Positions 4,574 to 35,165 of a DNA stretch of 35,396 bases are shown here, piece after piece; positions within the stretch are counted from its first letter, which is position 1; every line of letters begins with the position of its first letter. The stretch is from positions 1 to 35,396 of the forward strand of contig JAFAQY010000009.1 of the NCBI GenBank assembly GCA_019261985.1, written 5' to 3'. Both the position numbers and the translations under genes were made by a program. The notes under the pieces are model-generated. The model searched no databases, was not told where the DNA came from, and saw nothing but the letters and a program-made list of their open reading frames with translations. The stretch is from Bryobacterales bacterium. GTDB lineage: Bacteria > Acidobacteriota > Terriglobia > Bryobacterales > Bryobacteraceae.

Positions 4574-4608
4574 GCCGCCATTCTAGCGCGGGCCTGCCAT
4601 TAAACTCT

Positions 4609-12367: not shown

Positions 12368-13762
12368 TTGCTGCTGTCCTCCTCCACCTACTTCGTCTTT
12401 CTCGTCGGCATCTTCTTCCTTTACTGGCCGCTTTCGCGCGTTCGGGCGCTAGCGCTCGGGCTGATTTTGTTCGCGAACTACTTCTTCTACGCCCGCTGGG
12501 ACCTGACGCTGCTCGCGCTAATCCCGGTGATTTCCACAGTCGATTACTGCATTGGTCTCGGATTGCAAAGCTCGAAATCGCCTTTCACGCGGCGCGCGTT
12601 GGTCACCGCGAGCATTCTGATGAACCTCGGGGTGCTTGCGTTTTTCAAGTACATGCCTTTTTTCCTCGGGAACTGGGCGCATTGGACGGGGCGGACTGTC
12701 CCCGAGTGGACGTTGGGACTTCCAATCAGCCTGTCGTTTTATTGTTTCCAGGCGCTGACGTACACCATCGATCTTTACCGCCGCGACATCAAGGGCACGC
12801 GGAGCTATCTGGCGCACCTTGCGGCTGTGTCGTTTTTCCCCACCATTCTCGCCGGACCGATTACGCGCGTGGAGTCTCTGGTCGATCAGTTCGAAAAACC
12901 TAAGCAGCTCGATCCCGCGATGGGTGGCCGGGCGTTATTTCTAATCGGCCTGGGGCTTATCAAAAAGCTGATGATCGCCGATTATCTTGCCGGCAACCTG
13001 GTGAACCGCGTTTTCGATTTTCCGAATCTCTATACCGGTCTTGAAGTGCTGCTCGCTGTATACGCGTACGCGTTCGAGTTGTACTACGACTTTTCGGGCT
13101 ACACCGATATTGCTATCGGCTCGGCGCTGCTGTTGGGAATCAAGCTGCCCGCGAACTTCAATCGCCCCTACGCCGCCGAGAACGTCGCCGACTTCTGGCG
13201 GCGCTGGCACATCACGCTATCCAACTGGCTGCGCGATTATCTTTACTTTTCCTTACCGGGGAAGCGTTCGAAGGTTCTGCCTTATTTCAGCCTGATCGTG
13301 ACCATGGTGATCGGGGGCCTGTGGCACGGCGCGAGTTGGAATTTCGTCCTCTGGGGCGCGATTCACGGCGGCGGCCTCGCGCTGGTCCGGTTATGGCAGG
13401 TTTGGAAAGGCAACGCCAAGGCCACCGGCTTCTGGCGGTATCTCAACATCTTCGTCACATTCCACTTTGTTGTTTTCGCGTGGATCTTCTTCCGCGCGCC
13501 GGATTTCCAAACTGCTTCGGCCATCATCGGCCGGATCGGGTCGCACACCGCTTCGCTCGCAAATGTTTCGGCGGGCTTGTGGCTGGTGCTCGCCATCGCG
13601 CTCTTCTTCCATTACGTTCCCAAGAAGTGGTATGAATTCAGCTTGAATCTCTATGTACGGGCGCCCTTTTATGCACAGGCGGCCGCGCTGCTGGCGCTGG
13701 CGATCGGGATTCAGTACGTCGGGCAAACCGGCGCGGCGCCCTTTATCTATACGAAGTTCTGA
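12368..13762 (+). CDS. MBOAT-family O-acyltransferase (AlgI-like)
   Basis: A 464-residue polytopic membrane protein. It shows the AlgI/PatA/DltB hallmarks: N-terminal SSSTYFVFLVGIFFLYWPLS, YYDFSGYTDIAIGSALLLG, NFNRPYAAENVADFWRRWH, TLSNWLRDYLYF, and the catalytic histidine in GLWHGASWNFVLWG. MBOAT proteins move acyl groups across the membrane to a periplasmic partner. The start is TTG 12368, matching the usual family N-terminus. The stop overlaps the next start (TGATG), and two SGNH hydrolases follow, which is the classic arrangement for cell-wall or exopolysaccharide O-acetylation. It is divergent from the fused ligase gene, with 54 nt between the starts. Confidence 0.92.
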   Translation: MLLSSSTYFVFLVGIFFLYWPLSRVRALALGLILFANYFFYARWDLTLLALIPVISTVDYCIGLGLQSSKSPFTRRALVTASILMNLGVLAFFKYMPFFLGNWAHWTGRTVPEWTLGLPISLSFYCFQALTYTIDLYRRDIKGTRSYLAHLAAVSFFPTILAGPITRVESLVDQFEKPKQLDPAMGGRALFLIGLGLIKKLMIADYLAGNLVNRVFDFPNLYTGLEVLLAVYAYAFELYYDFSGYTDIAIGSALLLGIKLPANFNRPYAAENVADFWRRWHITLSNWLRDYLYFSLPGKRSKVLPYFSLIVTMVIGGLWHGASWNFVLWGAIHGGGLALVRLWQVWKGNAKATGFWRYLNIFVTFHFVVFAWIFFRAPDFQTASAIIGRIGSHTASLANVSAGLWLVLAIALFFHYVPKKWYEFSLNLYVRAPFYAQAAALLALAIGIQYVGQTGAAPFIYTKF

Positions 13763-15135
13763 TGATGCGTGGTTCGTTTATGCCCGGAAAAACGGCACTC
13801 ACGGTGGCGACGTTCAGCGCTCTGATTTTTCTGCCGCGGATTGCGCCGGCCTTGAAGAACTACAAATCGCTGGAGCCCGCCGGCATCCCCGCCGTGTGGC
13901 AATTCCCCATCCCCAAAAACGCTCAGGATGCGCGGCCGGAAATGGAAGAAATCCGCGCCGCTCGCCTACAGTTGCTCGCGCCGAAGAATCTGGTGGATCC
14001 GAACCACGCGATGGATCATTTTTACGAATCGCTTCGACGCGGCGGACTGACGCGAGTTCTCCATTACGGCGATTCACCAACCACCGGCGACCTGATCACG
14101 GCCGATACGCGCGCGCTCCTTCAAAAGCAATTCGGCGATGCGGGCGCGGGATTCGTGCTGATCGCGAAGCCATGGGCCTGGTACTATCATCGCGGCGTCG
14201 AAATGGACGCCGCGAGCTGGACCATCGACGTTGCGGGAGCTACGGAGATTAAGGACGGACTGCACGGTCTGGGAGGCGCCAGTTTCCGCGGAACGCCCGG
14301 TGCCGTGGCGCACTGGATGCTGCGGGATGGCCAGCAGCGGACCCTCGACATTTCATACTTAGCGCAGCCCGACGGCGGATCGTTTTCCTTGGACGCCGAT
14401 GGAAGAGAGATCGGCTCCGTGGAAACTTCCTCGCCGGAGCCTGCGCCGGCCTTCACGGGGTTTGAGCTTCCTCCCGGCTCCAAGCGGATCACATTGCGCG
14501 TGACACAAGGCAGTGTCCGGTTGTACGGCACGGAGTTTCGCAAGCAAAGCCCAGGCGTGATCTATAGCAGTCTCGGCGTGAATGGCGCGAACATCACGCT
14601 GCTGTCGCATGCATTCAACAACGCGCACTGGGCGGCGCAGTTGCACCATTACCGGCCGGATTTGGTTGTGCTCGCCTATGGAACCAATGAGAGCGGCTAT
14701 GCGCCTTTCGTCAACAATACGTGGGGCAAGGAGCTAAAAGCGGCGGTCCACCGTTTACAGGCCGCCCTGCCGGGGACCTCGATCCTGCTGATGAGCCCGA
14801 TGGACCGCGGCGAGAAAACGGACGCGGGCGAGATCGACACGATTGCCACGCTGCCTCGATTGGTGGGAATCGAAGCGGCGGTCGCCGCCGAAACCGGAGT
14901 GGCGTTCTTCAACACCTACGAAGCGATGGGAGGGCGGGGAACAATGGCCCGCTGGTATGCCGCGGAGCCGCGGTTGGTGGGGGCCGACTTCATCCATCCC
15001 ATGCCGGCGGGAGCGAAAATTGTGGGAGAACTCTTGTACAACGCCCTCAAAGACGGGTATAACGAATATAAGCTGAGAAAATTAGCAGAGACGTCGACTG
15101 GTTTCCAGGGAAGTAACGAGGTCGCATCCAAGTGA
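13762..15135 (+). CDS. exported SGNH/GDSL-family hydrolase or acyltransferase, copy 1
   Basis: A 457-residue protein with an N-terminal hydrophobic export segment (about 10-30). The SGNH residues are visible: block I HYGDSPTTGD (Ser105), block III AYGTNESG (Asn309), and block V ADFIHPMPAGA (Asp409, His412). Between blocks I and III there are about 200 extra residues, predicted mostly beta, as in SGNH proteins with an inserted carbohydrate-binding module such as Ape1/PatB types. It probably takes acyl groups from, or removes them in concert with, the MBOAT partner in the periplasm. The start overlaps the MBOAT stop by 1 nt (a second ATG follows at 13765). The next gene begins 13 nt downstream and is a diverged copy. 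Confidence 0.85.
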   Translation: MMRGSFMPGKTALTVATFSALIFLPRIAPALKNYKSLEPAGIPAVWQFPIPKNAQDARPEMEEIRAARLQLLAPKNLVDPNHAMDHFYESLRRGGLTRVLHYGDSPTTGDLITADTRALLQKQFGDAGAGFVLIAKPWAWYYHRGVEMDAASWTIDVAGATEIKDGLHGLGGASFRGTPGAVAHWMLRDGQQRTLDISYLAQPDGGSFSLDADGREIGSVETSSPEPAPAFTGFELPPGSKRITLRVTQGSVRLYGTEFRKQSPGVIYSSLGVNGANITLLSHAFNNAHWAAQLHHYRPDLVVLAYGTNESGYAPFVNNTWGKELKAAVHRLQAALPGTSILLMSPMDRGEKTDAGEIDTIATLPRLVGIEAAVAAETGVAFFNTYEAMGGRGTMARWYAAEPRLVGADFIHPMPAGAKIVGELLYNALKDGYNEYKLRKLAETSTGFQGSNEVASK

Positions 15136-15148
15136 GTAGCGCCGAGTG

Positions 15149-16549
15149 ATGACACCTTCGAAGCTGATAGCTACTCTGATCGCCGCCGCGGTGATCGGCG
15201 CAGCTGTCTCTCCCACGCCTTCCAAAAGCCCTACAAAGAAAACAAAAGTAAAGAAATATGTTTCAAGCGCCGGAAAAGCCGGGCCCGCCGCGGATTCCTC
15301 CAAGCCGGCAACAGCCGCTTCGTCGAAGGCCGTAGCCCGCCGCGCCGCTCCCAAGCCGCCTCCGGTCCCCACGAAACTGCGTGAGTCCGCGCACGATTTC
15401 GTCTTTGACAGGGTAGCGAACGGAGCGGACATCCCCGTAGAAAACGCCCCTGCGCTAATCCCGTTCTTCGAGCAGCTTTATCGCAGGCAGGACGGCTCGG
15501 CAATGGGGCCGCTGCGAATCTTGCAGTATGGCGATTCCCATACGGCCGCCGATGAATGGACCGGTGAACTGCGCAACCGTTTTCAGGAACGGTTCGGCGA
15601 TGGAGGCAGTGGCTTCTCGCTCGCCGGCCGGCCGTATGCCGGCTACCGGCGCGCCGATGTCCGCAGCGGCTCCACGCGCGGCTGGCACACCGACGGTCTC
15701 GCCGGCCATTCAGGCGATGGCATCTACGGCCTTGGCGGCATCAGCATGTCGGTTCGGATGCCCCATGAGGACATTTATGTCGAGGCAGAAGCGAACGATT
15801 TCGAGTTGTTTTATTACCAGCAGCCCGGCGGCGGCACGCTTCAGCTTTACGATAACGGCGTGGCGGTAGATCGAATCCCCACTGACGGAGAGCCCGCTCC
15901 CGGCTACTATCATTTGGAGTCCGCGCCCGGATTCCACCGGCTGGAATTGGAGACCCTCGACCGCGCTCCGGTCCGCCTCTTCGGTTGGGTGGCGGAAAAA
16001 GTATCGGGAGTGACGTATGAGACGCTGGGCATCAACGGCGCCGAGGCGCCGATCGTCCTTGGCTGGAATCAGGAGACGTTAAAGTCGAATATCGAGCGCC
16101 GCAGTCCAAGCTTGATCGTGCTCGCCTATGGAACCAACGAGGCCGGCCACAAGATTTGGACGCTGGAATCCTATCGCGAGAAGTTTTCCGAATTGCTGTC
16201 GCGCATCCGCGAAGCTGCGCCGACGGCCGCAATCCTGGTGGTGGGCCCGCCGGATCGGGACATTCGCATCAAACGCGCATGGACGCCGTTAGACGGCGTC
16301 GACATGATCGTCGAGGCTCAGCGCGAAGCGGCCAAAGCGAACCGGTGCGCCTTTTGGGATTTGCGCGCGAAAATGGGTGGGAAGGGCGCCATGCAGCAAT
16401 GGGTAAACGCAGGGCTGGCGGCGAACGATCACGTGCATTTCAGCGGCGGTGGCTATCGCATGCTCGGCGACGCGATCTTTCGCGATGTGATCAGCCAGTA
16501 CGAAGCGTTCCTGAAAGCGCGGGAAAGCATTCTGGCAGTCGCGCCGTAA
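15149..16549 (+). CDS. exported SGNH/GDSL-family hydrolase or acyltransferase, copy 2
   Basis: A 466-residue protein. A signal sequence of about 21 residues is followed by a low-complexity Pro/Ser/Lys/Ala linker to about residue 75. The SGNH core follows: QYGDSHTAADEW (Ser130), AYGTNEAGH (Asn330) and NDHVHFSGGG (Asp-x-x-His at about 427-430). It shares the overall plan of the preceding protein (insertion between blocks I and III, GINGAE/GVNGAN, LGG, FGDGGSGF/FGDAGAGF), so the pair arose by duplication. The linker suggests that the domain stands off the membrane or wall. GTG 15146 directly precedes ATG 15149; I chose the ATG. It is likely a partner of the MBOAT protein. Confidence 0.85.
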   Translation: MTPSKLIATLIAAAVIGAAVSPTPSKSPTKKTKVKKYVSSAGKAGPAADSSKPATAASSKAVARRAAPKPPPVPTKLRESAHDFVFDRVANGADIPVENAPALIPFFEQLYRRQDGSAMGPLRILQYGDSHTAADEWTGELRNRFQERFGDGGSGFSLAGRPYAGYRRADVRSGSTRGWHTDGLAGHSGDGIYGLGGISMSVRMPHEDIYVEAEANDFELFYYQQPGGGTLQLYDNGVAVDRIPTDGEPAPGYYHLESAPGFHRLELETLDRAPVRLFGWVAEKVSGVTYETLGINGAEAPIVLGWNQETLKSNIERRSPSLIVLAYGTNEAGHKIWTLESYREKFSELLSRIREAAPTAAILVVGPPDRDIRIKRAWTPLDGVDMIVEAQREAAKANRCAFWDLRAKMGGKGAMQQWVNAGLAANDHVHFSGGGYRMLGDAIFRDVISQYEAFLKARESILAVAP

Positions 16550-17942: not shown

Positions 17943-19625
17943 ATGCGAATAATCCTCACCTTCCTGGTGCTCCCCGCCTGCTGGGCGCAGAGCGGCGCCG
18001 CGGACGGGGCCACGCGCGCCGATTGGCCGCACTACGGAGGAACGCAGCTTTCCTGGCGCTACACCGCGCTCGATCAGGTCAATACGGCCAACGTGAAGAA
18101 CCTGAGCCCGGCCTGGATTTTCCAGACCGGCGATTACAGCGAAGGGCTGCAAGCCACTCCGATCGTCGTGGACGGCGTGATGTACATCATTACAGCCCGC
18201 GCTCAGGTCTTCGCCCTCAATGCCGCCACCGGTGCGGTGCTCTGGCATTACCGCTATCCGCCCGTCCGGCCTCCGGGCATCGGAGGCATCGCCGAAAACC
18301 AGGAAAGCCGGGGAGTAGCCGTAGGCAACGGCATGGTCTTCTTTGGAACCGCCGACAATTATATGGTCGCGCTCGATCAGAAGACCGGCCGCGAAGTCTG
18401 GAAAGTGAGCGTCGACGACACCAAGCAGTGCGGATGCAGCATCGCGGCGGCGCCGCTTGTTGTTAAAGACAAAGTTGTCGTGGGCGGAAACGGAGGCGAC
18501 CAGGCGCATCGCGGATACCTCACGGCCTTTAATTCGAAGACGGGGCGCCTGGCGTGGCGCTGGTACGTAGTTCCGGCTCCGGGTGAGAAAGGCAACGAGA
18601 CTTGGAAGGGAGATAGCTGGCGATACGGCGGCGGCGCGCCTTGGATGACGGGTTCCTACGACTCCAGCCTAAACCTCATCTATTGGGGAACGGGCAACGC
18701 CGCTTCCGATTTCTACGATGCCGATCGCGTTCCCTCGCCGGATAAAAGCAAAGACACAAACTTGTATACGGCCAGCGTAGTGGCTCTCGACGCCGATACG
18801 GGCAAGCTCCGCTGGCACTACCAGGAGGTCCCCGACGATGTTTGGGACTTCGACTCCGCCTACGAAGTCCTGCTTATGGACCGGCAGGTGCGCGGGCGCA
18901 TGCGCCAGATTCTCGTCCACATGAACAAGAGCGGATTGACGTTCGTTCTCGATCGCGCCACCGGCGAATTCCTGGGCGTCTTCTCCACTCCGGAAGTGCG
19001 GAACTGGATCACTGGCGTGACCGAAGACGGCAAGCTCGTCGGTCGCAACGAACCCAAGCCGGGAAAAACCGACACTTTCTGCCCTAGCGCAGCCGGCGCC
19101 AAGAGCTGGAATTCCATGGCATATTCGCCGCGCACTGGATTTATTTACACGCCCATCAATGAGCTCTGCGCGGCGCTGAACCCCACCACCGAGGGCCCGC
19201 AGGAAGGCCGGGGGTTTATGAACAGCTCAATGGATTTCAAGCTGCCGCCCGGCCGGACGACATATAGCCACCTGGATGCCTGGGACCCGGTTACCGGAAA
19301 ACGCGCGTGGAGCTATCCTTACAAATACATCCTCCTCGCCTCCGTGCTTGCCACGGCAGGCGATCTGGTCTTCACCGGCGATCCCGAGGGCAATTTCATA
19401 GCGTTCAATGCCAAAACCGGCGCGAAGGCCTGGAGCTATCAAACGGGCGCGGGCCATCGCGGATCGTCTATGTCTTATGCGGTGAATGGACGGCAATTCA
19501 TCGCCACGCCAGTCGGTTGGCAAGCGTTGCTGGTGGGTGGTTTGGGCGCCTCACTATTTGGGGATTTGAACCCTCGTATCGGTTCGACGATCATCGCCTT
19601 CGCTTTGCCGGAGGGATCGAAATGA
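17943..19625 (+). CDS. PQQ-dependent alcohol dehydrogenase, lanthanide-type Asp motif
   Basis: A 560-residue periplasmic quinoprotein with a signal peptide (MRIILTFLVLPACWA) and an eight-bladed propeller. Family motifs include ALNAATGAVLWHYRY, AFNSKTGRLAWRW, YWGTGNAASDFYDADR and the catalytic region VPDDVWDFDSAYE. In WDFD the first Asp (302) is the catalytic base; the second Asp (304) is the residue found in lanthanide-dependent XoxF/ExaF enzymes and replaced in calcium-dependent MxaF. The adjacent-cysteine pair of methanol dehydrogenases is absent; Cys163 and Cys165 (CGC) lie in the equivalent area. It oxidises an alcohol or aldehyde and passes electrons to a c-type cytochrome, encoded next with an ATGA overlap. 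The substrate is not known. Confidence 0.88.
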   Translation: MRIILTFLVLPACWAQSGAADGATRADWPHYGGTQLSWRYTALDQVNTANVKNLSPAWIFQTGDYSEGLQATPIVVDGVMYIITARAQVFALNAATGAVLWHYRYPPVRPPGIGGIAENQESRGVAVGNGMVFFGTADNYMVALDQKTGREVWKVSVDDTKQCGCSIAAAPLVVKDKVVVGGNGGDQAHRGYLTAFNSKTGRLAWRWYVVPAPGEKGNETWKGDSWRYGGGAPWMTGSYDSSLNLIYWGTGNAASDFYDADRVPSPDKSKDTNLYTASVVALDADTGKLRWHYQEVPDDVWDFDSAYEVLLMDRQVRGRMRQILVHMNKSGLTFVLDRATGEFLGVFSTPEVRNWITGVTEDGKLVGRNEPKPGKTDTFCPSAAGAKSWNSMAYSPRTGFIYTPINELCAALNPTTEGPQEGRGFMNSSMDFKLPPGRTTYSHLDAWDPVTGKRAWSYPYKYILLASVLATAGDLVFTGDPEGNFIAFNAKTGAKAWSYQTGAGHRGSSMSYAVNGRQFIATPVGWQALLVGGLGASLFGDLNPRIGSTIIAFALPEGSK

Positions 19626-20383
19626 AGTGGCTTTGGGTGTTCTCCGCGGCGCAGGCGGTGATGTGGGGACAGTCCGCTCGGGAAGCGGTGCGGCAAGGCG
19701 AACAGATATTTGCAAAATCATGCGCGACCGGATATTGCCACGGCGCGCGCGGCGGACCGGGTGGCGCGCCACGGCTCGCCGGGCGCGGATTTACGCAGCC
19801 ATTTATCGCCGCGACGGTTGCCCGCGGAGTCTCCGGAACGGCGATGCCGTCCTTCGCCGGGACGTTATCGCGCTCCGACTTGGCGGCTGTAGTTGCGTAT
19901 GTATCCACGTTGAACGGCATCGCGAACCCGGCTGTAGCCGCCAATGTGGGTGGCGCGGAATCGAACGCAGGTCCGGCGCTTTCGGCCAATGCCGCCAAAG
20001 GGCGCCAGCTCTTTTCCGATGCCGTGCGCGGTTTCGGCCGCTGCTCCACCTGCCACGAAGTGAATGGACTCGGAATTTCCGTCGCAACGCCGATTGCGGA
20101 GATTCCCGCCAACGCGCAAGCTCTGCGGTCGCTCGCAACGCCTCATGTTTTGACATCGATAATCGGCGGCGAGCAAATGCCGTCGTTGCCGGTTAGTAGC
20201 ACCAACCGAGGTGTTGTCTTTTACGATTTAACCAGCTCGCCCCCCGTGCTCCGCACTGCCGATCAAGGCTCGGTCACGTCGAAGGAAGGCAGCCCATGGA
20301 GTCATTCGTCCGCGATCGGCTCGTATAACGACGCGGAGTTGGACGCAATTCTCGAATACCTCCGCGCCGCATCCGTGCCTTAG
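19622..20383 (+). CDS. di-haem c-type cytochrome, one CX4CH site
   Basis: A 253-residue exported cytochrome with a short signal peptide (MKWLWVFSAAQAVMWGQS). Domain 1 contains CATGYCHG: Cys34, Cys39 and His40, four residues between the cysteines instead of two. Its distal ligand is probably Met75 (GTAMPSF). Domain 2 has a normal CSTCH (141-145) and Met186 (GEQMPSL). It is the likely electron acceptor of the PQQ dehydrogenase, whose stop overlaps its start (ATGA). An upstream in-frame extension exists but runs inside the dehydrogenase gene and is not real. A CX4CH motif can still take haem in some cytochromes; whether it does so here is open. Confidence 0.85.
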   Translation: MKWLWVFSAAQAVMWGQSAREAVRQGEQIFAKSCATGYCHGARGGPGGAPRLAGRGFTQPFIAATVARGVSGTAMPSFAGTLSRSDLAAVVAYVSTLNGIANPAVAANVGGAESNAGPALSANAAKGRQLFSDAVRGFGRCSTCHEVNGLGISVATPIAEIPANAQALRSLATPHVLTSIIGGEQMPSLPVSSTNRGVVFYDLTSSPPVLRTADQGSVTSKEGSPWSHSSAIGSYNDAELDAILEYLRAASVP

Positions 20384-21540: not shown

Positions 21541-23670
21541 CTACCCATTCGCATAAGCCGGCCGCCTCTCAGTAAGCTGCCGAAAATTTGCCCGGTTCAA
21601 CGTCAGCAGCACGCAAGGCTCTATCGTCCGCACGGTTTCGCCCTCCGGCACTTCTTCCAGCAAAGCCGATTCGCCGAAGCAATCGCCTTCCTCAAGCACC
21701 CCGGACCGCTGCTGCTTGCCGCTTTCGATGTCACGAAGCAGCTCAACCCGCCCACGCACGATGATGTACAAATACGCGCCAAATTCACCTTCGCGAACGA
21801 TCACCCTCCCCTGGGGATGTTCTTCGCCCCGGAAAAGGTGCACGGCGCTCTCGATCACATCGTCCGCCAGGCCATAAAACACCGGGACCTGTCGCAGCCG
21901 CTCCACCGAAACCTCGAAGCGGTGGCGCGCTTCGTCCATAACGAAACCATGCTGCTTTTGCCACAAGCGCTGATAAGGCCCCGGACGCCGTACCAACTCC
22001 GCGTGAGTGCCATCGCCGGCTAACCGGCCGCGGTCCATCACCAGAATGCGGTCCGCGCGCACTACCGAGGACAAGCGGTGAGTCACCAATATCACCGTGC
22101 GGCCCTTGCGCAGCCGGTCCAGCGTCTTTAAAATCGCAGACTCCGCGGCGGCGTCCAGGGCCGATGTCGATTCATCCAGAATCAGCAGGCTGGGGTCGCG
22201 CACGATCGCGCGCGCCAGAGCGATCCGCTGCCGCTGGCCTCCCGAAAGGCGGCCGCCGCGCTCGCCGACCTCCGTGTCGTATCCATAAGGAAGCCGCGCG
22301 ATGAAATCGTGGATTTCGGCGGCCTTTGCAGCCTCCTCTACTTCCGCATCCGTCGCGGAGGGGCAGCCCAGACGGATGTTATCGCGAACGGATAAATCCA
22401 ACAAGAAACTCTCTTGCGGCACATAGCCGATACGGGAGCGAAGCTCGCGGATCGCAACACTCTTTAAATCGGCGCCATTTACAGTGATTCTGCCGCGATC
22501 GGGATCGTACAGGCGCATCAGCAGACTCAAAACCGTGCTCTTGCCCGAGCCGCTGGATCCGACAATGGCCACCATTCCTGTTTCATGAATGGAGAAGTTC
22601 AAATCGCACAGGCCGGCTTGATCCGCTGAATAGCTGAAAGCGACGTCCTCGAAGCGGATTTCCGGTAATGTTTTTGGGAGCTGTGCCGTGCCGGAATCGG
22701 ACATCGCTGTTTCAACTTCCAGCAGATCTCCGATACGTCGCATCCCGCCTTGCGCTTCTACCAGCGTGGGAACATACTGGGTCAAAGTCGCAAGCGAGTA
22801 GCTGGACGTCAAGAAAATCGCTTGAAAGGCGGCCAGGGCGCCCACGGTCAATAGACCCCGCGAAACCATGTAGGCCCCCGCAGCGAGAATGGAAACCTGC
22901 AAAAGCACAATGCCCGTGTAAGCCGACCTCTCGAGCATTCCGGAATATCTTCCCACCCCGAACATCCGCTCGCGCAAAGCGCCCGCGCGTTCCAGGAAGG
23001 CGGTGCGAAAGAAATTCGTGAGATCGAACGCCTTTATCAAAACCTGCGCTTCCAGATTTTCTTTCACTAGGCTGAGCACCCGGGTGTCCTCAACGCGCCG
23101 CTGGTAGCTTTCGGCCGCCACGCGCGGGGAAAAAATACGCGGGCCGGCGAGGGTGATCGGCCACACCAGCAACGCCATCAGCGCAAGCTTCCAATCTAAA
23201 AAAAACATCAGCGCCGTCCCCGCCAAAATATCGAGCGCGGGTAGAACGCCCCATCCGAGAAAGTTCTTGCACGCGGTTTCCAAGCTCGCCAGATCCGTGG
23301 AGAACGAGGCCAGAATTTCACCGGATTTGCCGGCCGAAAAGAAATCCAACGAAAGCTGCTGAACGTGATCGAAGATCGCGACCCGAAAATCCGTCAGCAT
23401 GGACGCGGTCAGGCGCGCGTACACGCGGTCCCGAACGTAGCCGAGAAGGCTCACTGCAACCGCCGCGGCCACCAATCCGGCGATTAGCCGGTACAGCAGG
23501 CTATGGTCGTCGCGCAACAGTCCATAATCTACGATGTATCGAAAGCTGAAGGGCAGCCCGGCGTAAAACGCCATTTCCAGCAGAATGCTCAACGCGATGA
23601 CCGGGCACACCTTCAGGTGCGGCTGGATATGGCGGAGGTAACCAAAGGTCGCTTGGCGGATGCCGCTCAT
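21541..23670 (-). CDS. ABC exporter (permease-ATPase) with C-terminal cyclic-nucleotide-binding-like domain
   Basis: A 709-residue half-transporter. Residues 20-310 are an ABC exporter membrane domain with six helices. Residues 335-570 are the ATPase: Walker A GSSGSGKST (371-379), signature LSGGQRQRIALARA (475-488), Walker B LLILDESTSALD (495-506) and the H-loop TH. Residues about 590-700 resemble a cNMP-binding domain (FYGLADDVIESAV, REGEFGAYLYIIVRGRVE, EEGDCFGESALLEEV). The phosphate-cassette Arg of true cAMP/cGMP binders (PRxA) is replaced by PEGE, so it may not bind a cyclic nucleotide. It should work as a homodimer; the cargo is unknown. It is divergent from the ATP-grasp-SET gene, with starts about 57 nt apart. 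Confidence 0.9.
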   Translation of the reverse strand: MSGIRQATFGYLRHIQPHLKVCPVIALSILLEMAFYAGLPFSFRYIVDYGLLRDDHSLLYRLIAGLVAAAVAVSLLGYVRDRVYARLTASMLTDFRVAIFDHVQQLSLDFFSAGKSGEILASFSTDLASLETACKNFLGWGVLPALDILAGTALMFFLDWKLALMALLVWPITLAGPRIFSPRVAAESYQRRVEDTRVLSLVKENLEAQVLIKAFDLTNFFRTAFLERAGALRERMFGVGRYSGMLERSAYTGIVLLQVSILAAGAYMVSRGLLTVGALAAFQAIFLTSSYSLATLTQYVPTLVEAQGGMRRIGDLLEVETAMSDSGTAQLPKTLPEIRFEDVAFSYSADQAGLCDLNFSIHETGMVAIVGSSGSGKSTVLSLLMRLYDPDRGRITVNGADLKSVAIRELRSRIGYVPQESFLLDLSVRDNIRLGCPSATDAEVEEAAKAAEIHDFIARLPYGYDTEVGERGGRLSGGQRQRIALARAIVRDPSLLILDESTSALDAAAESAILKTLDRLRKGRTVILVTHRLSSVVRADRILVMDRGRLAGDGTHAELVRRPGPYQRLWQKQHGFVMDEARHRFEVSVERLRQVPVFYGLADDVIESAVHLFRGEEHPQGRVIVREGEFGAYLYIIVRGRVELLRDIESGKQQRSGVLEEGDCFGESALLEEVPEGETVRTIEPCVLLTLNRANFRQLTERRPAYANG

Positions 23671-23727
23671 TCGGAAAAGGGAATGATTATTTTCTCACGT
23701 TTCTGAGGTATGCTTTACGTTTATTCC

Positions 23728-25287
23728 ATGAAGATCGCTGTCCTCCACCCCTCGTCCAAAGAATCCAGCAGTCCTTTCAAAGACCTCGACCCCGATTGCG
23801 ATCCCTCGCGTTACCTTCCCGAAAACACCTGCGTGAATTTCTACATTTCGAAAGCCACTGCCGCGCGCCAAGTCGGCGAGATCGCGCGCTCAGGCTTTGA
23901 TATCGCTATCAATCTTTGCGATGGCTCATGGGACGAAGATCGCCCGGGCATAGACGTCGTCCAGGCTCTGGAGCGTCTGAATATGGCCTTCACCGGAGCG
24001 GGGTCCGCGTTCTACGATCCTTCGCGCGAAGCGATGAAGATCGCCTGCAATTCCGTCGGTGTCGACTTTCCGGCCTACATCATGGCAAGAGAGTGTAGCG
24101 ATGTGGAATGGGCCGCAAACAACCTTCAATTCCCGCTGATTATCAAACCTCCGCAAGGTTATTCCAGCATCGGGCTAACTCCCGAGTCGCGCGTCAGCGA
24201 TGCGGATGCGCTGCGCTGCCGAACGCCGCGTGTGATGGAAGCATACGGCTCGGCGCTTATTGAGGAATTTATCGAAGGCCGCGAGTTCACGGTCCTGGTG
24301 GCCGACGCGCGCACAGATAATGAAGACGCCTGGGCCCTCCAGCCGGTTGAGTTTGTGTTCCCAAAAGGCGAATCGTTCAAACATTTCGATCTCAAATGGA
24401 AACACTTCGATCGCATGCAGACCCGCGCTGTCGCGGAGGAACCGCTGGCTTCTCGACTGCGCACAGCATCCGCGCTCGCTTTCGCGGCTCTCGGCGGATC
24501 CGGCTACGGCCGCTGCGACCTGCGCATGGATGCAGCGGGTAAGATCTACTTGCTTGAAATCAATCCATACTGCGGCGTGTTCTACCCGGAGGGCCAGTTC
24601 GGCAGCGCGGATTTCATTCTGGCCAACGATCCCGCCGGCCATCGCGGCTTTCTGGAGCATCTGATCGCCTGCGGATTGCGGCGGCGCGGTCGCGCGCGGC
24701 GGTCTTGGATTTTGCGCCACACCAAACACGGCGGATTCGGGTTATTCGCCGCGCGCCCCATCGCGGCGGGAGAACTGGTGGAGGCCTACGAAGAGCGGCC
24801 GCATTTTTTAGTGTCGCGCGGCAAGGTCGAGCGAAGCTGGCGCGGCTTGCGCCGCAAGTGGTTCGATCGGTATGCGTGGCCGCTCACAGCAAGCCTCAAC
24901 GTTATGTGGAGCGAAAGTCCCGAAGACTGGCGTCCGATCAATCATGCTTGCGACCCGAACACGTGGCTGGAGGGCTTGGATCTCGTTGCCCGCCGCGATG
25001 TCCTTCCCGGCGAGGAATTGACCGTCGATTATGCAACTTTCTGCGGCCCGTCGATGGCAGCATTCGAATGCGCCTGCGGTTCAGCGCTCTGCCGGGGCGT
25101 AATTTTGGGAACCGACTATCTCCTGCCGGAAATTCGCGCGCGCTACGGCAACCATGTCTCGGACTTCGTCCGCCAGAGCCGGACCAAGCGCGCAGTGGGG
25201 CAGGTTGCCAACCTGCAGCGGGTTGCCAACCCGCTTCCCGACCCGTCCACCAACCGCGCCCCATTGAAACAAATTCGCATGATTTAG
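23728..25287 (+). CDS. ATP-grasp ligase (D-Ala-D-Ala ligase-like) fused to SET methyltransferase domain
   Basis: A 519-residue protein. Residues 1-315 form an ATP-grasp ligase: KIAVLHPSS start, FTGAGSAFYDPSREAMK, LIIKPPQGYSSIGL, LIEEFIEGREFTV and GRCDLRMDAAGKIYLLEINP, with the Mg-binding Glu/Asn in EIN. Residues about 325-440 form a SET domain: HTKHGGFGLFAARPIAAGEL, NHACDPNTW (403-413) and GEELTVDY (428-435). A post-SET zinc motif follows, CxCxxxxC (Cys448, 450, 455), which probably works with Cys408. The first half should join a carboxylate to an amine through an acyl phosphate; the second uses S-adenosylmethionine, usually on lysine. Residues 490-519 are encoded by the repeat at 25195. ATG 23728 fits the family start; ATG 23710 adds six residues. 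Confidence 0.88.
   Translation: MKIAVLHPSSKESSSPFKDLDPDCDPSRYLPENTCVNFYISKATAARQVGEIARSGFDIAINLCDGSWDEDRPGIDVVQALERLNMAFTGAGSAFYDPSREAMKIACNSVGVDFPAYIMARECSDVEWAANNLQFPLIIKPPQGYSSIGLTPESRVSDADALRCRTPRVMEAYGSALIEEFIEGREFTVLVADARTDNEDAWALQPVEFVFPKGESFKHFDLKWKHFDRMQTRAVAEEPLASRLRTASALAFAALGGSGYGRCDLRMDAAGKIYLLEINPYCGVFYPEGQFGSADFILANDPAGHRGFLEHLIACGLRRRGRARRSWILRHTKHGGFGLFAARPIAAGELVEAYEERPHFLVSRGKVERSWRGLRRKWFDRYAWPLTASLNVMWSESPEDWRPINHACDPNTWLEGLDLVARRDVLPGEELTVDYATFCGPSMAAFECACGSALCRGVILGTDYLLPEIRARYGNHVSDFVRQSRTKRAVGQVANLQRVANPLPDPSTNRAPLKQIRMI
25195..25262. repeat. dispersed palindromic repeat, copy 6, inside a gene end
   Basis: GTGGGGCAGGTTGCCAACC starts the element, followed by the hairpins GCAGGTTGCCAACCTGC and GCGGGTTGCCAACCCGC, ending in a CGCGCCCC terminus. 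Unlike the other copies it lies in the coding sequence, providing the last 30 codons of the ATP-grasp-SET gene with GQVANLQRVANP. The copy at 30042 would encode the nearly identical GQVANLRRVANP. Confidence 0.75.
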
Positions 25288-29531: not shown

Positions 29532-30035
29532 GTGTCTTTCCGTTCTCTAAGTGTCGTTCCCTTTTCCTTTTTGGTCCTATCGAGTTTCCCCAATCGATGC
29601 TTGGCGCCACAAACTGGACGGGAGCCTTCGGCAAGTGAACGCGACGCGCTTGCCAGGGAGCGTCTTCACAAGCGGCTCGGTGTGTGGCAGAACCGTCTGG
29701 AGTTGAGCGATTGGAAGATCTCGCTGATCACGGTGCACCGCGGCGAGCTGAGTCCGGGAACACTAGGAAATGTCCGCTGGAATCTGGACGAGAAGACTGC
29801 GCGCGTCAAGGTCCTGAACGCGAACGACTATGAACTGCCGTTCGAGGCGGCGTTCAGTGATATGGAGTTTACCTTGGTGCACGAGTTGATTCACCTGGAG
29901 CTCGCTTCGTTGCCGCGCACCGACGAAAGCCGCGTCGACGAGGAGGGCGCGGTGAACCGCATGGCGGATGCGCTGCTTCAGCTCGATCACCGCGAGTCGG
30001 CCAAAGCCAACGTAACGGCCTTTCTCGCGCGCTAG
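29532..30035 (+). CDS. secreted small HExxH metallopeptidase-like protein
   Basis: A 167-residue protein with a likely signal peptide (hydrophobic VVPFSFLVLSSFP). It carries VHELIHLELASLP with the zinc motif HELIH (117-121), and 16-17 residues later DEEGAVNRMADAL, where a Glu could be the third ligand, as in minimal gluzincin-like proteins. The N-terminal half (LGVWQNRLELSDWKISL) resembles the substrate strand region of such folds. It could be a protease or a catalytically minimal domain; phage or SprT-like functions are also conceivable. The start is GTG 29532. It precedes the Att-type operon but is separated from it by the repeat at 30042. Confidence 0.7.
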   Translation: MSFRSLSVVPFSFLVLSSFPNRCLAPQTGREPSASERDALARERLHKRLGVWQNRLELSDWKISLITVHRGELSPGTLGNVRWNLDEKTARVKVLNANDYELPFEAAFSDMEFTLVHELIHLELASLPRTDESRVDEEGAVNRMADALLQLDHRESAKANVTAFLAR

Positions 30036-30041
30036 CCGGCC

Positions 30042-30131
30042 GTGGGGCAGGTTGCCAACCTGCGGCGGGTTGCCAACCCGCCTGCCGACTTTTCTACAAG
30101 CCCGCCCACCGCGGTTGACAACCGCGCGCCC
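30042..30131. repeat. dispersed palindromic repeat, copy 7
   Basis: It begins GTGGGGCAGGTTGCCAACC and contains the hairpins GCAGGTTGCCAACCTGC, GCGGGTTGCCAACCCGC and GCGGTTGACAACCGC. It fills the gap between the HExxH gene and the ABC ATPase. It is open in the ATPase frame and so offers a false N-terminal extension starting GTG 30042. Confidence 0.75.
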
Positions 30132-30164
30132 GATGCATCCGGCCCTTTACGATTAGAAATAGGA

Positions 30165-30857
30165 ATGGCGTTTCTTCGCCTGGATCATGTAAGCAAGCAC
30201 TACCTGACCGATGGCGCGCGCGTAGCGGCGTTGCATGACGTGTCGCTCGAAGTGGATTGCGGCGATTTCGTGGCGTTGGTGGGTCGCAGCGGATGCGGAA
30301 AGTCCACTTTGCTCAACCTTGCGGGCGCAATGGATTTTCCAACTTCCGGGAAAGTGTATCTGGATGGCCAGCTCACCTCGGGGCTTTCCGATTCGGGTCT
30401 TGCGAAGATCCGCCGGGAAAAGGTCGGATTTATTTTTCAGTCGTTTCAGTTGTTGCCGGCGCTCTCTGTCGCCGAAAACGTGGAATTGCCGTTGTTGCTG
30501 GCGGGACGCGGCAGCGCCCGCGAGATCGCGATCGAATCGCTTGAGTGGGTGGAAATGGAGGCATTCGCTCAACGCATGCCGTATCAGCTTTCAGGCGGGC
30601 AGATGCAGCGGGTTGCGATCGCGCGCGCGCTAGCGTCGGGCCCGCGCCTGTTGCTCGCCGACGAACCCACCGGTAATCTCGACAGCTCAACCAGCGAACA
30701 CATCCTCGCGCTGCTCCGGCGCATCGTGGATGAAAAAAACACGATTCTATTAATGGCTACGCATAGCGCGGAAGCCGCGCGAATTGCCGATACGACCGTG
30801 ACTCTAAAGGACGGAAGAGTGCTTGATGTAAGCGTTCGAGCCGCAATGCAGGAGTAA
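30165..30857 (+). CDS. ABC transporter ATPase, LolD/MacB type (AttE-like)
   Basis: A 230-residue ATPase: Walker A GRSGCGKST, Q-loop FIFQSFQLLPALSVAENV, signature LSGGQMQRVAIARAL, Walker B LLLADEPTGNLD and the H-loop ATHS. These belong to the MacB/LolD class that powers mechanotransmission transporters with FtsX-like permeases. The permease of this system is at 31622 and an AttH-type protein follows, so it is the AttE-type subunit. ATG 30165 matches the family start (MAFLRLDHVSKHY); the longer frame reads through the repeat. A toxin-antitoxin remnant separates it from its permease. Confidence 0.9.
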   Translation: MAFLRLDHVSKHYLTDGARVAALHDVSLEVDCGDFVALVGRSGCGKSTLLNLAGAMDFPTSGKVYLDGQLTSGLSDSGLAKIRREKVGFIFQSFQLLPALSVAENVELPLLLAGRGSAREIAIESLEWVEMEAFAQRMPYQLSGGQMQRVAIARALASGPRLLLADEPTGNLDSSTSEHILALLRRIVDEKNTILLMATHSAEAARIADTTVTLKDGRVLDVSVRAAMQE

Positions 30858-30872
30858 ACTGAGGACAGATTA

Positions 30873-31125
30873 ATGGCCAAGAGGTTCACCCTTGAGTTCG
30901 AGCTTCCCGACGACGTCGTTGGCGGCTTGCCCGACGCGGAGGTATGCGCATTAGCAAGAGAAGCTTTCGTAATGGAGCTGCTGCGTGAGCATCGGGTCTC
31001 GCAAGGAAAGGCCGCCGAGGTCTCGTAATGAGCTATTTCCTCTCATGGCGAAATATCAAGTGCCGGTGGTGGACCTTTCCGGGGAAGAACTTCAGAATGA
31101 GCTGAACCATCGTTTTCCCGAATGA
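30873..31125 (+). pseudogene. UPF0175-family antitoxin, frameshifted
   Basis: ATG 30873 (with GAGG 8 nt upstream) starts MAKRFTLEFELPDD, and the frame continues through LREHRVSQGKAAEVS and stops at 31026-31028 after 51 residues. RxSxGKAAE is the signature of UPF0175 antitoxins, which continue with an L-G-[LM]-S turn and a helix. In another frame the missing part is present (SRNELFPLMAKYQVPVVDLS, then GEELQNELNHRFPE) and ends at TGA 31123-31125. The expected VLG turn is lost at about 31020, so a deletion or other indel changed the frame. The partner toxin lies next, also frameshifted. UPF0175 and DUF3368 are known to pair. Confidence 0.65.
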
Positions 31126-31143
31126 TGGCCTAGCCGAAACTGC

Positions 31144-31609
31144 GTGCCGATTGTTTCGAATGCAGGACCTCTTCTGTCGTTTGCCCGCGCCCGAAGGCTT
31201 GGTCTGCTGCGTGATGTCATCCGGTCCTTGCTGATTCCGAAAGCTGTGGCACGGGAAATCGGCGAGACGCTGCCAGCCGAACCTGCCGTGGGTGGAATAT
31301 AAAGCTGTGCGACATCGGGAATTGGTGGATGCCTTTCCGCAATATTTGCACCTGGGCGAACGGGAAGCCATTCTTCTAGCCGAGGAGATGAATGCAGAGT
31401 TACTCATCGATGATCGCGCGGCGCGGATAGTGGCCCACACTCGAGGCTTAGCGCATTTCGGCAGCCTTCGTGTGCTAAAGCATGGAAAAGAACTTGGCCT
31501 CGTGAACCATGTGAGACCGGTGCTTGACGATCTGATATTGAGCGGCAGTTATATCGGTAAGAATCTTTATGTCGAATTCCTGCGGCAAGTAGGCCAGGCC
31601 GTAGAATGA
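31144..31609 (+). pseudogene. DUF3368-family PIN-like toxin, frameshifted
   Basis: GTG 31144 starts VPIVSNAGPLLSFARARRLG, then LLRDVIRSLLIPKAVAREIG, the N-terminal half of DUF3368 (PIN-like) proteins, and stops at about 31296. The C-terminal half lies in another frame: WVEYKAVRHRELVDAFPQYL, LGEREAILLAEEMNAELLID and DDRAARIVAHTRGL, ending at 31609. A frame change is needed around 31258-31290. DUF3368 proteins are candidate RNases of toxin-antitoxin pairs; the acidic PIN residues (Asn/Asp near the start, Glu in GERE, Asp in DDR) can be followed. Both genes of the pair are broken, so the module is decaying, or the sequence has small errors. Confidence 0.65.
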
Positions 31610-31621
31610 AACGCTCCTGAA

Positions 31622-34117
31622 ATGCCTTATCTAAAGCTCTTTTCGCGCCTCATCCTACGCCCCCTTTGCCGCGAACGTCTGCGCACCGCGCTGACCGTCG
31701 CGGCGGTCGCCATAGGCGTAGCAGCGGTGCTGGCGATTGAGCTCGCGGGCGAGGCCGCCGCGGGATCGTTCCATTCTTCCATGGAAACGCTCATCGGCCG
31801 GGCGGATTTCGAGGTCACCGCCGCGGGAGGTCTCGCGCCGGATGTGCTTACCCGCCTCGCGACGCTTCCGTATGCTCTCAAGCTCCATCCGCGCATCGAA
31901 GATTATGCGGTACTGCCGAACTCCAATCGGTCCGTGCCCTTATTAGGCCTGGACCTCGTCGGCGAATCGCAGCGTGAAGACGCCAACCTCCAAATTCCGG
32001 AAGGCGATTCGATTTTCGTTGGGCGCGACCTCGGATACAAAACGGGTGATCGCGTAAATCTCGCTGTGAACGATTCGGTTTGCGACTGCACTGTCCGGGG
32101 CGCGCTCGGCGAAAACTCCGGCGACACCATAGTCATGGATTTGGCCGCGGCGAACCGCCTTCTTCGCCGCAACGGCGCTCTCGATCGCATCTTGATCGAA
32201 ACGCCCGCCGGGCGCTCTACCAGCGAATGGGAGGCGCTGCTCCGCCAAGCGTTGCCCGAGGGAACCGCGCTGGAGCGCGAAGGCGCGCGCACCGAAGAAA
32301 ACCGAAAAATGCTGGCCGCATTTCGCTGGAATCTGCGCGTGCTCAGTTATATTTCACTCGCGGTCGGCGCATTTCTCATCTACAACACGATTTCCGTTTC
32401 GGTGGTGCGCAGGCGCGTCGAAATCGGAATCGTACGCGCGCTGGGAGCGACCCGCCCGGCCGTCATTGCGGCCTTCCTAAGCGAAGCAGCGCTGCTGGGT
32501 CTGATCGGCGGAGCGGCGGGGATCGCGCTCGGACGATTTATGGCGGAAGGTGCGCTGAAAATGGTCGCGTCCACGGTGGAATCCCTGTACGTCAGCAGCC
32601 GGCCGGCGGCGATTGCGCTGGGATGGAATATGATCGCGCTGGCGCTCGCCATCGGCGTGCTGGTCTCTATCATCTCCGCGCTTCTGCCCGCGTGGGAAGC
32701 ATCGCAGGTCGCGCCCGCGGAAGCTATGGGCCGAGCCAGGCGCGAGCACGAAGCGCGAACGCATCGCGGCCGTAATCTGGTGCTCGCGTCGCTGCTCGCG
32801 ATCTGCGCCTGGATCTGCTCGCGGCAGGACCCCGTCGGCGGCAAACCGCTCTTCGGCTATCTCTCCGCCGTGCTGATGATCGCGGCCTCGGCGCTCGCGA
32901 TTCCCGCCGTCATCGCCTCCTTGGCCGGCGCTGCTTCGGCGGCGACGCGCCGGCTGTTTGGAGTGGAGGCCCTGCTTGCGAGCCGCAGTCTGGCTGCATC
33001 TCTGCGCCGCACCTCCGTCCTTGCAGGTGCGCTCTCCACTGCCATTGCGATGCTCGCCGCTGTAGGCATCATGGTCGGCAGCTTCCGCGAAACCGTCGTG
33101 GAATGGATGGGCGACCGTATTCAAGCCGACTATTACCTGCGCCCCGCCGTTCCCGCCAGCCCCGATCGTCATCCTACGCTCATGCCCGATATTGCGGACA
33201 GGCTGCGGCGACTGCCGGAGGTTGCTGCCGTGGACCAGCTTCGCTCCTATGAAATCCCCTATGATGGCTTGCCCGCCACGCTTTCCGCCGCGGACGTGCG
33301 GATCGCGGGGCGATACGGTACGCGCGGCTTCTTGTCCGGCCGCAATCCCGGCGCGATTCTCGAACAGCTCGTTGGCCGCGACGCTGTCGCCGTAAGCGAA
33401 CCGTTTGCAAACAAGCACCACGTAAAGGCCGGAGACACTTTAACGTTGACGCTTGCCGGCAGGAGAGCATCGTTCCGGGTAATCGATGTGTATTACGACT
33501 ACTCAAGCGAGCGCGGCGCAATTTTCATGGATCGCGGCACGCTGCTCAAATACTTGCCCGATCCCGCCCCATCGAATATAGCCGTCTATCTCAAGCCGGG
33601 ATTACGCCTCGACGATGCCCGCCCCGCGATCGAAGCCGCGCTGGGCGGCAGCCGCGCCATCGTCGCATCCAACCGCTCGCTTCGCGAAGAGGGCATCCGC
33701 GTATTCGACCGCACGTTCGCCATTACCTATGCCCTCGAAGCTGTAGCTGTTTTCGTCGCCGTGATGGGTGTCGCCGGAGCGCTGCTGGCGCTGGTGATCG
33801 ACCGCCGCCGCGAGTTCGGCTTGCTGCGTTTCCTCGGCGGAGACGATTCGCAGCTTCGCCGGATGATTTTGTTCGAGGCCGGCTTCCTCGGATTGCTCGC
33901 GAATGCGGCCGGAATCGTCCTGGGATTCTTCCTATCGCTGGTTTTGATCTATGTCATCAACAAACAATCTTTCGGATGGACCATTCAGTTTCACTGGCCC
34001 ATAGCCGTTTTGCTTCCCGCGCTTTCGATTGTTTATGCGGCAACTGTTGTCGCCGCCTTTTACCCCGCGCGAGTCGCCACCCGCTTGATTCCGATAGATG
34101 TGATCCATGAAGACTAA
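31622..34117 (+). CDS. FtsX-like ABC permease, fused double module (AttFG-like)
   Basis: An 831-residue protein with two FtsX/MacB-type halves. The N-terminal helix at 21-40 is followed by a periplasmic domain, then FtsX helices around 240-365 (LIYNTISVSVVRRRVEIGIV with the RALGATR coupling loop). The second half starts with helices near 385-435 and SLRRTSVLAGALSTAIAMLA, has another periplasmic region (about 500-690) and ends with helices 700-825 (RRREFGLLRFLGGDDSQL). Two complete permease modules in one chain mean that one copy could pair with two ATPase subunits. It lies 12 nt after the toxin remnant, and its end overlaps the AttH-like gene by 11 nt. The exported substrate is unknown. Confidence 0.85.
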   Translation: MPYLKLFSRLILRPLCRERLRTALTVAAVAIGVAAVLAIELAGEAAAGSFHSSMETLIGRADFEVTAAGGLAPDVLTRLATLPYALKLHPRIEDYAVLPNSNRSVPLLGLDLVGESQREDANLQIPEGDSIFVGRDLGYKTGDRVNLAVNDSVCDCTVRGALGENSGDTIVMDLAAANRLLRRNGALDRILIETPAGRSTSEWEALLRQALPEGTALEREGARTEENRKMLAAFRWNLRVLSYISLAVGAFLIYNTISVSVVRRRVEIGIVRALGATRPAVIAAFLSEAALLGLIGGAAGIALGRFMAEGALKMVASTVESLYVSSRPAAIALGWNMIALALAIGVLVSIISALLPAWEASQVAPAEAMGRARREHEARTHRGRNLVLASLLAICAWICSRQDPVGGKPLFGYLSAVLMIAASALAIPAVIASLAGAASAATRRLFGVEALLASRSLAASLRRTSVLAGALSTAIAMLAAVGIMVGSFRETVVEWMGDRIQADYYLRPAVPASPDRHPTLMPDIADRLRRLPEVAAVDQLRSYEIPYDGLPATLSAADVRIAGRYGTRGFLSGRNPGAILEQLVGRDAVAVSEPFANKHHVKAGDTLTLTLAGRRASFRVIDVYYDYSSERGAIFMDRGTLLKYLPDPAPSNIAVYLKPGLRLDDARPAIEAALGGSRAIVASNRSLREEGIRVFDRTFAITYALEAVAVFVAVMGVAGALLALVIDRRREFGLLRFLGGDDSQLRRMILFEAGFLGLLANAAGIVLGFFLSLVLIYVINKQSFGWTIQFHWPIAVLLPALSIVYAATVVAAFYPARVATRLIPIDVIHED

Positions 34118-35165
34118 ACTGATGGCCGGCGCGCTCGCGTTGTATCGCCTTGCTCTGCCCGGCTATCATTACGACTTCCCGCGCGATCACTTCAACCATC
34201 CGGATTATCGAACCGAGTGGTGGTATTACACCGGCAATCTTCACACCGAAGGCGGCCAGCGCTTCGGCTTCGAGCTTACTTTTTTCCGGCAAGCGGTGGA
34301 CCGCCGCGCCACCCCGCCCTCGGTATGGGACGTTCGCGATGTGTGGATGGCGCATCTGGCTTTGAGCGATATCGACGGGCGGCGCTTTTTCCATACGGAG
34401 CGCTTGAACCGCGCCGGCGCTGGTCTGGCGGGCTCGGATTCGGAACAGCGGCGTGTGTGGAATGGAAACTGGCGAGCCCAATGGCTGGACGCAAGCACTC
34501 AGCAACTCGAGGCCGTGGCGGATAACTTCTCCTTCCACTTGACCTCGAAATCCGCGAAGGCCCCCGTGATCCATGGAAAAAATGGAATCAGCCAAAAAGC
34601 TGAAGGCGAGGGCAAAGCGTCGCATTACATTTCGCTAACCCGTCTGAACACAACCGGCGTTATCGAATTGGAGGGGCGGAAATACGAAGTCGAAGGCCTG
34701 AGCTGGATGGACCATGAATTTTTCACGTACCAACTCGATGCAGCCCAAAGCGGATGGGACTGGTTCAGCCTGCAGTGCGCGGACGGTTCCGAAATCATGC
34801 TGCTCCGGCTAAGGCGCAAAGACGGATCGATGGATCCGTACTCCGCCGGAACATATATCGATCCGCAAGGCCGCGGCAGATTCCTCTCGGTGAACGAATT
34901 CTCGCTCACTCCCGGTAAGGCATGGACAAGTTCGGCGACGCATGCGTCGTATCCGATCGAATGGAGCATTCGCATTCCATCGCTAAGCATGGATGCAGCG
35001 TTAACCACGCGCCTGCCCCAGCAGGAACTCGCCGGTAATCAAGCCGCCCCGCCCTACTGGGAAGGAGCGGTAGACGTAATCGGCACGAAACAAGGCAACT
35101 CCCTGATCGCCTCAGGCTACCTGGAGATGACCGGCTATTCCGGCAACCCCCCCTTGGCATATTAA
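34107..35165 (+). CDS. AttH/CrtC-like lipocalin-domain protein
   Basis: A 352-residue protein of the AttH/carotenoid-1,2-hydratase-like group with two lipocalin-type barrels. The hallmark TEWWYYTGNL appears at about 36-45, VDRRATPPSVWDVRDVWMAH in the first domain, and VEGLSWMDHEFFTYQL with the WMDHE motif in the second. It is encoded directly downstream of the permease with an 11-nt overlap, as in att operons. AttH proteins act outside the cytoplasm with the ABC transporter; they may bind a lipid or polyisoprenoid, but the substrate is unproven. The N-terminal hydrophobic stretch is short, so export is not certain. Confidence 0.88.
   Translation: MKTKLMAGALALYRLALPGYHYDFPRDHFNHPDYRTEWWYYTGNLHTEGGQRFGFELTFFRQAVDRRATPPSVWDVRDVWMAHLALSDIDGRRFFHTERLNRAGAGLAGSDSEQRRVWNGNWRAQWLDASTQQLEAVADNFSFHLTSKSAKAPVIHGKNGISQKAEGEGKASHYISLTRLNTTGVIELEGRKYEVEGLSWMDHEFFTYQLDAAQSGWDWFSLQCADGSEIMLLRLRRKDGSMDPYSAGTYIDPQGRGRFLSVNEFSLTPGKAWTSSATHASYPIEWSIRIPSLSMDAALTTRLPQQELAGNQAAPPYWEGAVDVIGTKQGNSLIASGYLEMTGYSGNPPLAY

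Follow-up and report, generated by a model that had tools for sequence, protein, structure and literature searches.

What might a single bacterial protein do that joins an ATP-grasp ligase to a SET domain? The classical role of SET domains, familiar above all from eukaryotic chromatin, is the methylation of lysine in proteins. A ligase-SET protein of this kind is encoded in a stretch of 35,396 nucleotides from a soil-dwelling Bryobacterales bacterium (assembly GCA_019261985.1, contig JAFAQY010000009.1, positions 1–35,396), which we call the window. On balance, we favour a bifunctional enzyme, amino-acid ligase and methyltransferase in one, whose product would be a small methylated peptide or amide, secreted where an exporter exists; the reactions, substrates, order of steps, and export we infer from the comparisons below. 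The following features of the window are central to the argument:

21541–23670, minus strand: divergent ABC exporter with transmembrane domain, ATPase, and C-terminal cNMP-binding domain (Pfam); its nearest relatives adjoin the fusion genes of genomes G402 and G699
23728–25287, plus strand: fusion protein of an ATP-grasp ligase and a SET domain, 519 aa (alternative start at 23710)
23728–24687, plus strand: ATP-grasp half of D-Ala-D-Ala-ligase type, residues ~1–320 (Pfam match at residues 127–283)
24706–25182, plus strand: SET half, residues ~327–485 (Pfam match at 336–435; post-SET cysteines 448, 450, and 455)
25187–25255, no strand given: interspersed repeat, which supplies the fusion protein with its C-terminal tail (second copy at 30034–30102)

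The reading frame of the fusion gene (23710/23728–25287) is open throughout, and its length was taken as 519 aa because the relatives start at the ATG at 23728. Both halves match their Pfam families well above the respective cut-offs, the first Dala_Dala_lig_C (PF07478; E 1e-19, 71.3 bits against 24) and the second SET (PF00856; E 1.1e-11, 45.5 bits against 22.4). The motifs quoted in the preliminary description of this DNA, which had proposed the two domains in one chain and suggested profile searches for both domains as a check, are all present: PPQGYSSIGL, EEFIEGREFTV, and YLLEINP in the ligase half, followed by NHACDPNTW, GEELTVDY, and the post-SET CACGSALC. Matches among solved structures divide in the same way, with D-Ala-D-Ala ligases for the first half and the bacterial enzyme BurB together with histone methyltransferases for the second. 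The ligase-SET fusion is thereby confirmed, and the first outcome that the preliminary description would have counted against it, profile searches without a SET fold, did not arise.

The same join, in the same domain order, is found in 12 genes of 11 Acidobacteriota genomes including the window's own, and the relatives lie on L012 (a G396 contig), L013, and L014 as well as in G075, G811 (where the contig cuts off the 5′ end), G545, G533, G540, G402, and G699. These genomes comprise five coded families (f1, f22, f89, f90, and f95) and two palsa genomes. G540 carries two fusion genes in tandem, the first with a short SET and the second with two SETs, and the SET of the G699 fusion is degenerate, its motifs being lost. 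The SET profile matches six of the 12 fusions (those of the window, G396, G402, and G075 as well as the tandem pair of G540, whose first member reaches just 22.7 bits against the cut-off of 22.4); it finds nothing in the degenerate G699 SET, and the SET of the remaining five was assigned by alignment alone. The fusion is scarce: matches were counted in 2 of 396 genomes sampled across the phylum (full-length, the window's genome included), in 7 of 399 across the class (including the window's and the degenerate one), and in 2 of 119 from the order of G075, all of which are lower bounds since the class and phylum alignment searches scored the best three or two candidates per genome and the contig scan used six exact peptide words. 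None of the 12 other genomes of the window's genus in the class sample matches at E 1e-60, so the presence of the fusion is patchy. Phyla beyond Acidobacteriota were covered by the six-word contig scan, a viral scan with the fusion alignment, in which no relative was confirmed, and a plasmid search, which gave four records, none reaching 80% cover; the SETs on Streptomyces and Indioceanicola plasmids had no adjacent ligase by custom ligase, SET, and exporter profiles.

Could the join nevertheless be an assembly or frameshift artefact that fused two genes? The preliminary description had allowed for this if the halves were separate genes in all relatives, and ligases without SET and SETs without ligase do both occur in related genomes. 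In particular, six genomes of family f27 keep the ligase (380–417 bits over residues ~1–329), while a genome-wide SET search at E 0.001 found nothing in any of them, at completeness values of 81–100% that include two genomes at 81% and 87%. An identical join in 12 genes of 11 genomes from five coded families and two palsa genomes is, however, neither chance nor an assembly fault; these relatives rule out the latter, and we give an artefact of any such kind next to no credence. In a tree of the ligase half (30 rows), the 12 fusions and the six SET-less f27 ligases form one group (97/96), with G402 and G699 branching first and f27 placed beside the palsa, G075, and G811 fusions (91/82). A SET tree likewise places the fused SETs on one side of a branch against seven other SETs (89/98). 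As the f27 ligases are nested inside the fused group, a later loss of SET fits better than a faulty join, and a single ancient fusion followed by SET loss in f27 is suggested as the simplest account of these trees, though the value of 91/82 is not decisive.

The SET-less ligases of f27 also speak for a different reading, in which function lies with the ligase and the cell can dispense with the SET half or uses it for regulation only. The degenerate SET of G699 and the short first SET of G540 point the same way. Against it, the exact motif NHxCxPN is present in 9 of the 12 fusion rows (the exceptions being G075 with DPS, the first gene of G540 with DHSCEPN, and G699 with none) and the (D/E)Y motif in 11, and further stand-alone SET genes accompany the fusions of G402, G540, and G699. 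In addition, pN/pS was calculated for nine pairs that draw on 10 of the 12 genes; the values of the SET half (0.05–0.52) are close to those of the ligase half (0.09–0.55), with synonymous change near saturation in the distant pairs, so that both halves look constrained. We consider an appendage quite improbable and continue with the bifunctional ligase-methyltransferase.

What, then, might the ligase half join? K140, E180, R262, D264, and E277 align with D-Ala-D-Ala ligases and are invariant in all 12 fusion rows, and N279 is kept in 11 of them (S in the second G540 gene). We take these six to be the ligase residues for ATP and Mg; since they are kept in the fusions, activation of a substrate as acyl phosphate followed by attack of an amine would be the expected chemistry. 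Half of the first 32 ten-residue blocks of a structure model (16 of 32, corresponding to the ligase half) have a pLDDT of at least 85, and a Foldseek search with this model returned DdlB as best match (E 3.9e-18), the first five matches having target-normalised TM scores of 0.73–0.77. A Ddl-like fold of the ligase half is thus supported by the prediction. Like the Ddl family (TIGR01205/PF07478), the fusion would have an ATP-grasp fold with aligned ATP/Mg-site residues, with DdlB as its closest structural match; unlike it, the fusion adds a SET domain, scores far below the family cut-off (78.9 bits against 245.65 for TIGR01205), and coexists with a separate Ddl in the same genome (locus C38, 357 bits and above that cut-off). 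A role as the housekeeping Ddl is therefore out. The shown alignments to solved Ddls end at residues 283–284 of the fusion, and the C-terminal Ddl loop that binds the second D-Ala presumably lies beyond this end, for which reason the substrate pair, judged from the alignments, probably differs from that of Ddl.

A second point of reference is provided by clusters of BacD-type L-amino acid ligases, which combine dipeptide synthesis by an ATP-grasp enzyme with, sometimes, an exporter and tailoring enzymes. They share with our loci an ATP-grasp ligase, and we know of no SET domain in such clusters; the PDB ligase BL00235 matches the fusion weakly (E 0.032). A distant relative of the ligase half (29% over half of the query) lies on plasmid pTHIMO01 of Thioflavicoccus mobilis (L126) in an apparent operon with genes for SbnA, ornithine cyclodeaminase, and diaminobutyrate transaminase, a setting with diaminopropionate-type genes that would suit amino-acid products of non-ribosomal origin. 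The next gene there, on the opposite strand, belongs to the KamA family of radical SAM enzymes.

The SET half gave no usable structure model (most blocks with a pLDDT of 27–57 and a second model with a mean of 39.0, from thin alignments of seven and four rows), so the SET fold rests on the profiles. Against solved structures (phmmer), the window's SET matches BurB best (E 4.5e-8 over 62 residues) and KMT2A next (1.4e-6). The stand-alone SETs of G402 and G699, to which the comparison of stand-alone SETs was confined, prefer BurB over the best histone enzymes by about seven and eight orders of magnitude (2.6e-14 against 1.6e-7 and 8.3e-14 against 6.2e-6, respectively); the two of G540 are without post-SET cysteines. 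BurB (PDB 9l4t/9l4v), which is thus the best PDB match of all three, is likewise a small bacterial SET enzyme; unlike the fusion, with which it aligns over those 62 residues only, it is a stand-alone protein of 172 aa with no ligase, and it methylates free methionine to S-methylmethionine, holding the substrate via main-chain atoms and with stated roles for Y124 and M132 (PMC12542666). Two assumptions of the preliminary description are not supported in the form in which it gave them. One was a lysine-like nitrogen as methylation target: with two stand-alone SETs most like a methionine S-methyltransferase, lysine is not the sole candidate. The other was the rarity of SET domains in bacteria: in this phylum they are not rare, 115 of 392 Acidobacteriota genomes carrying one at E 1e-6, and a review reports such genes from over 500 genomes of bacteria, among them free-living ones (PMC3980110).

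If BurB is taken as the direct model, the bifunctional reading narrows to a special case of pure sulfonium chemistry in which S-methylmethionine, produced by the SET half, would be what the ligase couples. BurB itself makes this compound from free methionine. In the phmmer alignment there is no gap between the DY motif and CxC, and a residue count over this segment places BurB Y124 and M132 opposite Y435 and M443 of the fusion. Yet both palsa fusions have L in place of M443, plain inspection of the loci showed us no gene characteristic of methionine metabolism, and the main-chain grip of BurB on Met means that sequence cannot decide the substrate. This narrow version appears highly improbable to us. 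For the wider bifunctional ligase-methyltransferase we would envisage that the ATP-grasp half phosphorylates a carboxylate and couples the resulting acyl phosphate with an amine, giving a dipeptide or amino-acid amide, while the SET half would use SAM to methylate a side-chain heteroatom of a building block or of the product, either sulfur of methionine type or nitrogen of lysine or diamino-acid type. The linked ABC exporter, where present, would then move the product out.

A rival reading is that the protein modifies other proteins, the ATP-grasp half adding an amino acid to a protein in the manner of tubulin tyrosine ligases and the SET half methylating a protein lysine. Besides the classical role of SET domains, a profile built on 13 SETs of the genomes studied here speaks for it by putting KMT2A first (8e-24) and BurB tenth (1e-20). 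An architectural parallel is TTLL12, a single chain in which a SET-like domain is combined with a TTL domain bearing ATP-grasp-like motifs and which so illustrates that similar folds can meet; unlike our fusion, however, it is eukaryotic, has the SET-like domain first, is TTL- rather than Ddl-type, and is reported to lack critical residues and to catalyse neither reaction in vitro (PMC3520985). The nearest ligases of the fusion are D-Ala-D-Ala ligases, no TTL- or RimK-type family appears in its profile listings (25 families shown of 34 in one search), and an exporter and BurB-like SETs adjoin the fusion in some genomes. We consider protein modification unlikely and return to the bifunctional ligase-methyltransferase and its neighbours.

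The preliminary description had drawn attention to a divergent ABC exporter with a regulatory domain next door, and this stands: its C-terminal domain is of cNMP-binding type by Pfam, and the start codons of the two genes are 57 bp apart. The exporter matches the generic ABC_membrane and ABC_tran families, and no named NCBIfam family (MsbA-type or other) is above its cut-off among the 25 of 211 listed, the best being TIGR02204 at 400.5 bits against 780.4. The idea that the exporter serves the fusion gains evidence from some relatives, although the exporter is not universal. When the exporter was searched in 10 other genomes, the best matches were in G402 (511 bits, 40%) and G699 (334 bits, 36%), both adjoining the fusion gene, with the other eight genomes at 291 bits or less. 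A tree built from the window's exporter, these two, and one best background match from each of nine genomes (43 matches were listed) places the three in one clade against the nine background exporters (100/100). Three of the 11 fusion genomes are thus linked, whereas no exporter of this clade was seen beside the fusion in the other eight, where G396, G545, G533, G540, G075, and G811 have their best match genome-wide at background level (in G533, G540, G075, and G811 the contig breaks off close to the gene, and completeness is just 58% for G533 and 72% for G545) and the two palsa genomes were judged from the flanks only. A search of 389 genomes found 10 with exporter matches above 470 bits. In three of them the exporter adjoins the fusion and in G543 a stand-alone SET; the other six have neither ligase nor SET in the flanks examined, two of these contigs being short. 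In G543 (L123, 7240–9214), the stand-alone SET lies directly upstream of the exporter, whose match contains two in-frame TAG codons.

Neighbour comparison in Acidobacteriota, which had been proposed as a check, accordingly confirmed an exporter beside the fusion in G402 and G699 but not as a universal partner, and when we looked through the small ORFs around four of the loci by eye, we recognised no precursor peptide, in apparent contrast to graspetides and other RiPPs. The loci of the latter also have ATP-grasp ligases accompanied by methyltransferases or ABC transporters (PMC8939145); the main text of that paper nowhere uses the expression "SET domain". Our literature search, limited to open-licence papers, found no paper on an ATP-grasp-SET fusion.

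Several loci are more elaborate than the window's. G402 has the order HisKA-REC-ABC-cNMP / ATPgrasp-SET / AlaDH-like / SET, G699 the order SET / ABC / ATPgrasp / ATPgrasp / ATPgrasp-degenerate SET, and G540, up to the contig end, the order SET / ATPgrasp-SET / ATPgrasp-SET-SET / SET, so that stand-alone SETs occur at all three loci, extra ligases at that of G699, and a repeated module within a single genome in G540. From this we tentatively put forward a broader proposal, of which we are less confident, namely an NRPS-independent natural-product system of Acidobacteriota built from repeated ligase-SET modules, in which SETs would be the tailoring methyltransferases for the constituent amino acids and the methylated peptide would leave the cell through a dedicated ABC exporter coupled to a sensor. 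The fusion may point to an uncharacterised metabolite family in Acidobacteriota. If the bifunctional reading is true, this ligase-SET join, retained next to an exporter in some lineages, would make SET a tailoring enzyme in small-molecule synthesis and help with the re-reading of bacterial SET genes that are by default annotated as protein-lysine methyltransferases.

The AlaDH-like gene was rejected as a conserved partner, being strong in G402 only (nine genomes compared) and weak (E ~8e-6) in G533 and G699. Anti-phage defence was dismissed as the fusion has no PADLOC match at E 0.01; the exporter has 12, generic ATPase- or cNMP-type in look, the best being mad3 (2.3e-33). The G402 exporter (L066, 4072–7296) is fused to HisKA and response-regulator domains in addition to its cNMP-binding domain. 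In G545 and G533, both of one genus, a DapD-like gene with tetrahydrodipicolinate N-succinyltransferase domains lies directly upstream of the fusion (L063, 9170–10138; L064, 3142–4065). A gene that is presumably RecQ, with homologous copies in the two genomes, adjoins the G033 gene as well as that of G075, in differing arrangements.

Elsewhere in the window, positions 12368–16549 encode an MBOAT acyltransferase followed by two GDSL-type proteins, an arrangement as in polysaccharide O-acetylation loci. Positions 17943–20383 hold a PQQ-type dehydrogenase and then a frame with a CxxCH motif (by eye), and positions 30042–35165 an ABC ATPase-like frame (by eye), a MacB/FtsX-type permease, and a CrtC/lipocalin-like protein. 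The last ~30 residues of the fusion protein lie outside the conserved family and consist of the interspersed repeat, this tail being matched at eight other places in the genome. A 36-bp repeat, GTGGGGCAGG(T/A)TGCCA(A/T)CCTGC, has five copies in the window (at 4607, 9173, 25193, 30040, and 35164), one being the tail of the fusion gene and another falling on the listed start of ORF 30042, the true start of which is probably further inside than listed.
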